This document shows, one piece after another, positions 7,971 through 34,011 of a DNA stretch of 34,058 nucleotides; positions within the stretch are counted from its first letter, which is position 1, and each line of letters starts with the position of its first letter. The stretch spans positions 1 through 34,058 of the forward strand of contig CALZIK010000097.1 in NCBI GenBank assembly GCA_945787635.1, given 5' to 3'. The notes under the pieces were generated by a model, which was not told the origin of the DNA, did no database searches, and saw only the letters and a list, made by a program, of their open reading frames with translations. The stretch comes from Thermoanaerobaculia bacterium. GTDB taxonomy: Bacteria; Acidobacteriota; Thermoanaerobaculia; Multivoradales; JAHEKO01. A program made the position numbers and the translations under genes.

Positions 7971-8045
7971 GGAGTCCTTTGGCACCTCTTTCTGAAGCAC
8001 CCGACCCCATCCTCTGGCACCTCTTGGCCCTCTTGGCTGGAGGCG
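7971..8045 (+). repeat. GGCACCTC element, divergent copy pair
   Basis: Two related units lie between the stop of the 8060-8446 gene and the start of the small membrane protein. They read TCCTTTGGCACCTCTTTCTG and TCCTCTGGCACCTCTTGG, and the second is followed by a shortened copy CCTCTTGGCTGG. They share the GGCACCTC core with the arrays at 23347, 24727, 26825 and 27628 but not the CAAGAA lead. I read this as an old or diverged member. Confidence 0.6.
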
Positions 8046-19783: not shown

Positions 19784-20163
19784 TGAGCGTCCTCGTACGG
19801 CTAGGCGCCTAGCCAGTCGCGTCTCGTGAGCTTTGCCTTCACTATCCTCTACGAGCCTGAGAGCCCACGGTTCTCAATCGCCACGGAGAAGGGCCATTGC
19901 TCGCCTCGCGGAGCGGCAGAACCTCTGTTTCGGCACGAACATTCGGGCACCTTCTTCTCGAGAGCACTTCGAGCCGGGCCAGTTGCCGACCTGCCTACAC
20001 CTCTACCTGCCTCTACCTGGGGCCCCAAAACAGCACCTCTACCGGCAGGCACCTCTTCGGGCAGCACCTCTACCTGGGGCCAAGGCTCCGTCGCCCCACT
20101 ACCGAATCACCGCCCCAAGCAGGGTGAGAAGGCATGGGAGAGGTCCATCGCCCAAGCCGCGCT
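19784..20163. other. intergenic region dominated by a GGCACCTC-type array
   Basis: The 380 bases separate the multicopper oxidase stop from the DUF4199 start. The half nearest the oxidase is filled with repeat units. The other half has no gene, terminator or promoter I can defend. Short frames here read through the repeats and show repetitive Pro/Thr/Leu strings. Confidence 0.6.
19945..20090 (+). repeat. GCACCTC array with TACCTGG-type tag
   Basis: From about 19998 the units read CACCTCTACCTG, CCTCTACCTGG, GCACCTCTACCGG, GCACCTCTTCGG and GCACCTCTACCTGG, separated by a few bases or by a short GGGCCCC-containing stretch. A weak GGGCACCTTCTTC match at 19945 may be another unit. The tag (TACCTGG/TACCGG) differs from those of all other loci, while the CACCTC core is common. 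There is no intact GGTGGCACCTC head unit here, so this copy may have lost it. Confidence 0.7.
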
Positions 20164-23346: not shown

Positions 23347-23443
23347 GGAGCGGAGAAGAGGGTGGCACCTCTTCGGCCAGAGCCGGAGAAGAGGGTGGCA
23401 CCTCTTCCTCCCAGCACCTCTTCCTCCCACCTCTTCCTCCTGG
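23347..23443 (+). repeat. GGTGGCACCTC array with TTCCTCC tag, beside the RAYT gene
   Basis: Two full head units (23350-23376 and 23383-23411) share GGAGAAGAGGGTGGCACCTCTTC. The head can fold as GAAGAGG and CCTCTTC around a GTGGCA loop. The second head is followed by the tag TCCTCC and two shortened copies, GCACCTCTTCCTCC and CACCTCTTCCTCC, ending at 23443. The array sits 25 bases upstream of the FG-GAP gene's ATG. The remaining 23444-23671 holds one inverted copy and no gene of its own. Confidence 0.85.
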
Positions 23444-23610: not shown

Positions 23611-23641
23611 GAGGGAAAGAGGTGCCACTCTTTTCCGCAAG
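23611..23641 (-). repeat. inverted single copy of the GGTGGCACCTC element in front of the RAYT gene
   Basis: On the minus strand this reads CGGAAAAGAGTGGCACCTCTTT, with a seven- to eight-base inverted-repeat shape and one mismatch to the GGTGGCACC core. It has opposite orientation to the array at 23347 and ends 31 bases before the transposase ATG. The pair of opposed copies on the same side of the transposase resembles the REP arrangements seen around RAYT genes. Confidence 0.75.
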
Positions 23642-23671: not shown

Positions 23672-24568
23672 ATGGCAAGGCGATTGCGCTTCATTCCAGA
23701 GGGAGGTGCCCTGGTCGAGGTCACCTGTCGAACAATCCACGGCCGCTTCCTCCTCAAACCCTCACGCCGCCTCAACCGGCTGATCCTCGGCGTCCTCGGC
23801 CGAGCCCAGCGTAAGCACGAGTTCCCCGTCATCAGCTACGTCTTCCTGTCAAACCACTACCACCTGCTCCTCTGGGCGGCAAACGCCCACAAGCTTGCCT
23901 CCTTCATGAACTTCTTCAATGCGAACCTCGCCAAAGAAGCCGGCAGACTTGCCAACTGGCGCGAGAAGTTCTGGAGCCGCAGATACCAGGCCATCGTCGT
24001 GAGCGACGAGCCCTCCGCTCAGATCAGACGACTCCACTACCTTCTCTCACACGGAGTCAAAGAGGGCTTTGTACGACGCCCTTCCGACTGGCCCGGCGTT
24101 CACGCCGTCCGCAACCACCTCGAAGCCAAACCGCAGCACGGAGTCTGGGTCAACCGCACCAAGGCCTACGCCGCTCGCATGCGCAGTGAGAAGCTCTCGA
24201 AAGACGACCTCGAGTCGACGGAAACCGTCACCCTCTCTCCCCTGCCCTGCTGGGCCCACCTCGACGAGGCTACCTACTGCCAGCGCGTCACTGAGCTCGT
24301 TGAGGTTATCAAGGACGCCGGCCAGGCAAACGATGCCGCCGTTGCCCTGCCGCATTCATCGCACGAGCACCCTCTCCATTCCAAGCGTTCTCCCGCCCCC
24401 CACTTCCACTGCGCCTCCAAGCGAGTTCGCCGTGAACTCTTCGAGGCCTACTGCTGGTTCGTAACGGCCTATCGAGACGCGACCGCCCGCCTGAGTCGAG
24501 GCGATCCCTCACCTGACTTCCCAGAAGGCTCCTTCCCGCCCTCTCTTCCCTACGTCGCACACGCCTGA
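23672..24568 (+). CDS. REP-associated tyrosine transposase (RAYT, Y1/HUH)
   Basis: This 298-residue protein starts at ATG 23672; the open frame back to 23531 crosses a repeat element. The Y1 domain shows RRLRFIPEGGALVEVTCRTIHGRF, then SYVFLSNHYHLLL with the HUH pair His62-Tyr63-His64. FWSRRYQAIVVSDE follows. RRLHYLLSHGVKEGFVRR is the helix expected to carry the catalytic tyrosine, most likely Tyr123. A C-terminal extension of about 150 residues contains a His/Ser-rich linker. RAYTs cleave and join single-stranded DNA at REP elements; they are single-copy and lack IS ends. All catalytic residues seem intact. It is flanked by copies of the CACCTC elements on both sides, which makes it the likely cognate enzyme. 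Confidence 0.9.
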   Translation: MARRLRFIPEGGALVEVTCRTIHGRFLLKPSRRLNRLILGVLGRAQRKHEFPVISYVFLSNHYHLLLWAANAHKLASFMNFFNANLAKEAGRLANWREKFWSRRYQAIVVSDEPSAQIRRLHYLLSHGVKEGFVRRPSDWPGVHAVRNHLEAKPQHGVWVNRTKAYAARMRSEKLSKDDLESTETVTLSPLPCWAHLDEATYCQRVTELVEVIKDAGQANDAAVALPHSSHEHPLHSKRSPAPHFHCASKRVRRELFEAYCWFVTAYRDATARLSRGDPSPDFPEGSFPPSLPYVAHA

Positions 24569-24726: not shown

Positions 24727-24787
24727 TTCAAGAAAAGGGTGGCACCTCAGGTCAGCAGCACCTCAGGTCAGCACCTCAGGTCAGGAG
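24727..24787 (+). repeat. GGTGGCACCTC array with AGGTCAG tag
   Basis: A head unit CAAGAAAAGGGTGGCACCTC at 24729-24748 is followed by the tag AGGTCAG, then GCACCTCAGGTCAG and GCACCTCAGGTCAG (the first after CA). The head is nearly identical to those at 27631, 27670 and 27713, but the tag is different. The array lies between the RAYT stop and the convergent stop of the PQQ-type gene, 24 bases from the latter. Confidence 0.88.
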
Positions 24788-26824: not shown

Positions 26825-26872
26825 CACAAGAGGGTGGCACCTCTCGTGGGCGCACCTCTCGTGGGTCACCGC
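26825..26872 (+). repeat. GGTGGCACCTC array with TCGTGGG tag
   Basis: The head CACAAGAGGGTGGCACCTC is followed by TCGTGGG, then GCACCTCTCGTGGG and a truncated TCACC. The array ends about ten bases from the stop of the 26880-27416 gene. An extra duplication GCTATTGGGCTATTGGG at 26871-26887 covers that stop codon. Confidence 0.85.
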
Positions 26873-27627: not shown

Positions 27628-27815
27628 GCTCAAGAAAAGGGTGGCACCTCCAGTCGGGGGGGCTCTGCTCAAGAAAAGGGTGGCACCTCCAGTCGGCAGT
27701 CGGGGGGGGGCTCAAGAAAAGGGTGGCACCTCCAGTCGGGCAGCACCTCCAGTCGGGCACCTCCAGTCGGCACCTCCAGTCGGCAGCACCTTTAGTGGTC
27801 ACCTCACCGGCAACG
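27628..27815 (+). repeat. longest GGTGGCACCTC array, CAGTCGG tag
   Basis: Three full heads (AAGAAAAGGGTGGCACCTC at 27632, 27671 and 27714) each carry the tag CAGTCGG. The third is followed by shortened copies: CAGCACCTCCAGTCGG, GCACCTCCAGTCGG and CACCTCCAGTCGG, then diverged CAGCACCTTTAGTGG and TCACCTCACCGG. Heads one and two are separated from their successors by G-runs of seven and nine bases. The array lies 19 bases from the stop of the BNR gene. The rest of 27417-27833 has an AT-rich stretch near 27540-27570 but no gene. Confidence 0.93.
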
Positions 27816-33941: not shown

Positions 33942-33988
33942 CCAAGAAGAGGCCGGCACCTCTAGCCGGCGCCCTCTAGCTTGGGGTC
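33942..33988 (+). repeat. GGCACCTC element with TAGCCGG-type tag
   Basis: The string CAAGAAGAGGCCGGCACCTC is followed by TAGCCGG and a shortened, diverged copy CGCCCTCTAGCTTGGGG. Lead and core match the other heads except that GGTGGCACC is GCCGGCACC. It lies between the divergent oxidoreductase and VOC genes, 41 bases upstream of the former. Confidence 0.75.
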
Positions 33989-34011
33989 GTGCTAACCTCG
34001 GCGCGGCACTC

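Follow-up and report, generated by a model that had tools for sequence, protein, structure and literature searches.

Transposase locus and repeat arrays

The window, the whole stretch of DNA analysed here, is a contig of 34,058 bp from a genome of 4.36 Mb in 203 contigs, the same-order relatives of which are Acidobacteriota (Thermoanaerobaculia). It carries an intact Y1/HUH transposase gene of the RAYT/TIRYT type (23672..24568, + strand, 298 aa), recognized by the Pfam domain Y1_Tnp and its motifs. About 35 bp upstream of the start codon lies a slightly degenerate, inverted copy of a short repeat, CGGAAAAGAGTGGCACCTC on the − strand (23619..23637), and 162 bp 3′ of the stop codon lies a second copy, an exact match to AAGAAAAGGGTGGCACCTC on the + strand (24730..24748). 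This repeat, termed the head, is an end repeat of ~21 bp, YYNRMGAARAGGGTGGCACCTS, and is conserved over 106 head clusters, unlike the tags that follow it. Exact AAGAAAAGGGTGGCACCTC heads occur on the + strand at 24730, 27632, 27671 and 27714, with close variants at 23353, 23386, 26825 and 33944 (+) and at 23619-23637 (−). The layout of a locus is a head, (A)AGAARAGGGTGGCACCTC, a locus-specific tag and a series of shortened GCACCTC-tag units, and CACCTC is found 55 times in the window, compared with 22.9 expected and a maximum of 33 in 100 shuffles.

The original prediction held that the shortened units carry exact copies of the tag, which is correct for the arrays that it placed at 24727, 26825 and 27628. 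The first of these (24742..24784, +) is composed of GCACCTCAGGTCAGCA, GCACCTCAGGTCA and GCACCTCAGGTCAG (16 nt, 13 nt and the last copy) with the tag AGGTCA(G), such that 24730-24784 holds three identical copies of AGGTCAG. The second (26825..26865, +) comprises the head CACAAGAGGGTGGCACCTC and GCACCTCTCGTGGG in duplicate, both copies having the identical tag TCGTGGG, and the third (27632..27783, +) consists of three full heads (27632, 27671 and 27714) and three truncated units with the tag CAGTCGG, after which a diverged head-distal unit, GCACCTTTAGTGG, occupies 27786..27798 (+). Exact copying does not extend to the other three arrays, where the tag varies. The array placed at 23347 (23353..23440, +) has two heads, GAGAAGAGGGTGGCACCTC, the first with the tag TTCGGCC and the second with TTCCTCC, and two more TTCCTCC units. 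The array placed at 33942 (33944..33990, +) has a degenerate head, AAGAAGAGGCCGGCACCTC (degenerate part AGGCCGGCACC), and two partly matching units (CCTCTAGC) that differ from each other (CTCTAGCCGG versus CTCTAGCTTGG). The array placed at 19945 has units that begin near 19997; it is a degenerate array without an intact head (19997..20074, +), with the units CACCTCTACCTG, CCTCTACCTGGGG, GCACCTCTACCGG, GCACCTCTTCGGG and GCACCTCTACCTGGGG and the tags TACCTG, TACCTGGGG, TACCGGCAG and TTCGGGCAG. One more array of this type, also degenerate (GGCACCTCTTTCTG ... GGCACCTCTTGGCCCTCTTGGC) and absent from the original prediction, is located at 7980-8037.

Identity of the transposase

The window transposase belongs to the Y1/HUH enzymes by its match to Pfam PF01797 (Y1_Tnp; 27.1 bits, cut-off 23, E = 4.9e-6). 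The HUH motif is NHYH at residues 61-64 and the candidate catalytic tyrosine is Y123; NH.H and the tyrosine are kept in 42 relatives. The C-terminal domain is likewise conserved in the 42 relatives (PLPCW, PAP.FHA, FP.G.F.P). The match to ISDra2 TnpA structures is weak (E = 0.006), the score against NCBIfam REP_Tyr_transpos (NF047646) of 47.6 bits falls below the 80-bit cut-off, and an AlphaFold model built from 3 sequences had a mean pLDDT of 45, too poor for use. The published TnpAY1 classification recognizes class 1 by Y---Q and class 2 by Y---NP, and found no REPs for subclasses 2.1 and 2.3 (PMC6006769). The window transposase differs from these classes in that its tyrosine motif is YLLSHG..KE (consensus in relatives Y.L..G.KE.LV), and the RAYT class 2 motif is absent; it may represent an unlisted subclass beside class 1 and class 2.

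The arrangement of an inverted head just upstream of the gene and a second head 3′ in gene orientation is also present in three other genomes (G011, G013 and G022), with the upstream half alone in G008. Around 45 transposase genes, heads at ≤2 kb point outwards 21:5. A longer-range outward polarity, suspected from the window and G013, was rejected, as heads beyond 2 kb were divided 13:14. The transposase occurred in all 15 array-bearing genomes and arrays in none of 23 genomes without it (P = 0.0016), an association confounded by phylogeny through one large genus, and about 30 of the 45 transposase relatives examined had no head of this type alongside. Genome G022 contained more than 80 exact GGGTGGCACCT cores (L126-L142) and one transposase match, and because of this imbalance its heads appear to have been spread in trans. 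In this assembly, many contigs terminate at a head. Within the window's own genome, remnants of the transposase 5′ end lie beside heads at ~15000-15083 of L076 (contig C20) and ~9604-9713 of L264 (contig C30), evidence of decayed copies of the whole element.

Tags are shared within loci and differ between loci

The claim of the original prediction that the tag is shared within a locus and differs between loci was borne out in part, though not in every locus that it listed. In loci retrieved by their head or transposase rather than by an array, drawn from 16 genomes of the order (Acidobacteriota, Thermoanaerobaculia), a second CACC was sought within 26 nt of the head without demanding that the tags match. 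Six-nucleotide tags were identical in 13 of 23 comparisons within loci and in 0 of 68 between loci of the same genome, and across all between-locus pairs none of 506 were identical (within versus between, P ~6e-10). Over the 106 head clusters, the information content from 3 nt after CACC onwards was 0.02-0.18 bit per position. Because tags are identical within loci and not between them, and carry near-zero positional information, they are local and not a motif; in sequence terms the tags behave as local flanking DNA. Two details of the tag had been drawn too narrowly. A fixed length of 6-8 bases does not hold, as duplicated units of 11-17 nt correspond to ~5-11 nt beyond GCACCT, and the CACCTC that precedes the tag is not invariant, being replaced by CACCTA, CACCTG or CACCGC at other loci (for example, an array on contig C20 of the window's own genome with the tag TATTCTCCTCT).

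Variation between loci combined with conservation within them is also what a guide-like or templated variable region would display, the second explanation offered in the original prediction. Against this stand the shortness of the tags, their near-background composition and almost absent positional information, the lack of complementarity to the upstream flank (P = 0.75) and the lack of a link to any second site, such that a guide-like role has next to no probability. Pairing of the tag with upstream DNA as a hairpin, which looked plausible by eye at several loci, was rejected by the same test and by the folding comparison described below.

Sites lacking an array were sought in three comparisons. 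The intergenic DNA of the closest relatives compared (congeners G001 and G002) could not be aligned to the window, and no alignable empty site was obtained from G042 against G041 or from 10 orthologues set against a coding insertion in G023, where the array lies within a hypervariable protein linker. This last array (L093:8550-8680; contig C6, ~166.5 kb) is an in-frame head array within a PQQ-type beta-propeller gene and produces repeated ADEKGGTSS peptides in the linker that are absent from the 10 orthologues.

Duplications start at one bond and on one side of the head

Near heads, exact tandem duplications (8-45 bp) were denser than in the rest of those loci, by 13-fold in the transposase-fetched set and by 60-fold in the head-fetched set. 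The duplications have a fixed left edge. Among 27 simple two-copy duplications, the set used for the left-edge and microhomology tests, 21 were compatible with a left edge at GGTG^GCACC, where a uniform edge would predict 2.0; in loci not picked for arrays the proportion was 9 of 12. Five of the six exceptions started at +3, +6 or +8 and one was off by one. In these simple cases the duplicated unit measures 11-17 nt, and within single arrays unit lengths are mixed (12, 13, 15, 16 and 17 nt), with the junctions between units sometimes holding an over-run 'GCA' from the next unit. The duplications are also one-sided: among 85 isolated heads, 22 have one 3′ (outer side) and 2 have one 5′ (inner side). 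Some arrays repeat the whole head in units of 19-42 nt. The head-distal unit was more diverged than the inner units by 18:2, a ratio that drops to ~10:3 (P = 0.09) when units with 3 mismatches are removed.

Alternation of units was observed in G022 (L140:321-780, contig C392), where 16 units form alternating blocks of truncated units and full heads, all with the tag GACGGG, and larger blocks have been duplicated too.

Slippage, the first of two multipliers named in the original prediction, is a rival explanation of the arrays. In such an explanation slippage or microhomology-driven template switching would occur at a weak hairpin, GGT-GGC-ACC, and the transposase would merely have spread the heads; the raised density of duplications at heads is what any hotspot would give, and in ~70% of junctions one or more nucleotides are shared, commonly G or GG. 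However, there was no excess of junction microhomology over random right ends (1.29 nt versus 1.19 ± 0.29, P = 0.37), and the same test rejected the suspicion, formed by eye, that microhomology sets the tag length. Slippage further fits poorly with a left edge restricted to one bond and with duplications confined largely to one side.

Duplication depends on the head, and several controls separate this dependence from the structure of the DNA at the core. When GGTGGCACC followed an A-rich head, a duplication started at its centre in 35 of 148 cases, compared with 3 of 82 for the same 9-mer without the A-rich head (P = 3e-5), and the core on the opposite strand, GGTGCCACC, was duplicated in 1 of 224. 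Duplication from roughly this point persists at cores that break the symmetry (GCTGGCACC, GGTGGTACC and GGTGGGACC). The palindrome centre as a cause was ruled out by these mirror-strand, no-head and broken-palindrome controls. Single heads folded no better than shuffles (z −0.79 to +0.66), and only the double-head stretch at 23347 folded beyond them (z −1.97). Hairpins, palindromes and slippery sequences are disfavoured because none of them would act on one side in this manner or need the distant A-rich part. These data speak against both a hairpin effect and plain slippage, and slippage is judged an unlikely source of the arrays.

Proposed mechanism

The reading favoured here, with a probability of roughly one in two, is that the head is the end repeat of a Y1/HUH single-strand transposase and has spread as solo ends, that the tag is the adjoining host DNA and that the arrays arise by nicking, extension and resealing. 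Studied TnpA-REP enzymes catalyse with the HUH motif and tyrosine, cut single-stranded DNA adjacent to the repeat, yielding a 5′ phosphotyrosine and a 3′-OH, and transfer strands (PMC8266576). In the model, the transposase would nick GGTG^GCACC and keep the 5′ end covalently bound, a polymerase would extend the free 3′-OH (...GGTG) by a dozen or so nucleotides, copying GCACC and the adjacent flank, and the extended 3′ end would be resealed to the held 5′ end, which adds a single GCACC-tag. Further rounds at the head would build an array with a locus-specific tag. Such rounds would explain the mixed lengths of the units and the over-run 'GCA', and the greater divergence of distal units is predicted if new units arise at the head. 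The whole-head duplications count against this model, as they fall outside a simple scheme of nicking and extension, and so do the six duplications off this bond, the transposase relatives with no head alongside and the single transposase match among the many heads of G022. The sequence itself establishes the fixed left edge, the length range, the one-sidedness and the need for the head, whereas nicking by the transposase, filling of the unit by synthesis and the earlier presence of the tag as flank are inferred.

This reading retains the outline of the original prediction, in which an inserted head captures flanking bases that are then multiplied together with the core, and the arrays do lie near a RAYT-type transposase. 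Of its two multipliers, slippage is disfavoured by the single start bond, the absence of excess microhomology, the one-sidedness and the need for an A-rich head; RAYT joining is the better fit, short of proof. A more specific form, in which the transposase at solo ends acts as a site-specific local duplicator that nicks one bond, primes synthesis of 11-17 nt into the DNA outside and reseals without transposing, so that the ends would write tandem copies of their surroundings, is put forward tentatively, as less likely than not.

Two other routes would also start from the same bond. In the first, a cut at GGTG^GCACC in one sister would be joined to a second cut of lower specificity, 11-17 nt beyond that position in the other, without any synthesis. 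Enzymes of the Y1 type cut both 5′ and 3′ of the REP and transfer strands in vitro (PMC8266576), and a fixed left edge with a variable right edge would be produced equally well; yet the right ends have no common sequence, unlike the CT/CA cuts of the studied enzymes, and the route would need unequal cuts in two separate molecules. This route is considered improbable, somewhat more so than slippage. In the second, GCACCT would be a host target motif, the mobile part would end at GGTG and GCACC-tag would be a duplicated target. The break does fall exactly at GGTG/GCACC, and in a few loci the head is bordered on either side by a tag-like unit, as on contig C20 near 15.4 kb. The extra copies, however, lie on a single side of the head (22 versus 2), and the transposase gene carries GGTGC/GCACC in inverted form at its two ends, the arrangement anticipated for an end repeat. 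A duplicated target is accordingly given only a slim chance.

With regard to the origin of REP-like clusters with flanking DNA, the units described here are short enough, and their start exact enough, for the sequence to point to one bond, one enzyme subfamily and a length range. Should transposase-driven nicking, extension and resealing prove true, a domesticated-looking transposase would be able to generate tandem repeats specific to each locus, mostly between genes but at times within coding sequence.

Relation to known systems

Terminal-inverted-repeat-associated tyrosine transposases (TIRYTs, forming TIRtrons) were described by Di Nocera et al. 2013 (PMC3733652). The likeness includes a Y1/HUH transposase between inverted end repeats, no GTAG hairpin, end repeats that are in some cases dispersed and in dimers or clusters, and an acidobacterial group (K. 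versatilis and others). The window transposase gene is similarly flanked by inverted, non-REP ends (23619-23637, − strand; 24730-24748, + strand). The end motif is different, being GGGTGGCACC and not GGGGWSAS, though GGGGWSAS is not a strict requirement because the same study reports it for some TIRs only. Since inverted heads flank the gene and single heads have no stable REP hairpin, the system is best filed as TIRYT-type rather than as a REPtron, that is, as a RAYT/TIRYT-type system without the REP hairpin.

A REP is defined by GT[AG]G at the base of a stable hairpin, which was not found here, although GTGG is present within GGGTGGCACC, and the units are truncated direct copies rather than the two inverted REPs that form the unit of a REPIN cluster. 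An inverted pair of heads was seen only in G007, where two inverted heads lie ~10 bp apart in a REPIN-like arrangement (L165; contig C265, 7167-7214). According to Bertels and Rainey 2011 (PMC3116915) and PMC3733652, REP/REPIN tandem clusters include flanking DNA and adjoin the transposase, and the sharing of flank within an array is thus not new. In those clusters whole REPINs or REPs (tens to >100 bp) are repeated with their flanks, whereas the unit here is 11-17 nt, contains the outer half of the end only and has no hairpin. The excerpts of PMC3733652 contained no description for TIRYTs of arrays of half-end plus flank from one fixed bond. Similarly, half-end units, one shared start bond and the 11-17-nt range were found nowhere in the open-licence literature consulted, an absence that is weak evidence.

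Sampling and distribution

About half of the loci examined were fetched because they bear an array, and the unbiased subset is given separately where it was computed. Genome-wide counts are pattern searches. The genomes compared are fragmented metagenome assemblies, and an assembly artefact behind the arrays is unlikely because a typical read is longer than an array and the arrays were seen again in many assemblies made independently. A genome-wide scan for head arrays, using a pattern of 18 fixed bases and a variable gap, returned matches in many phyla, for which ~100 chance matches in 257 Gb are estimated here. Of the repeated arrays preceded by an A-rich head, nearly all were acidobacterial, with the one exception of L311 from 'bacterium Gpa_5', and the wide taxonomic spread suggested by the scan was rejected on both counts. 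A different dispersed repeat of ~40-90 bp was observed ~300 bp from a head in G042 (L160:9738-9787, contig C274), and many copies of it are present in G041 and G042.
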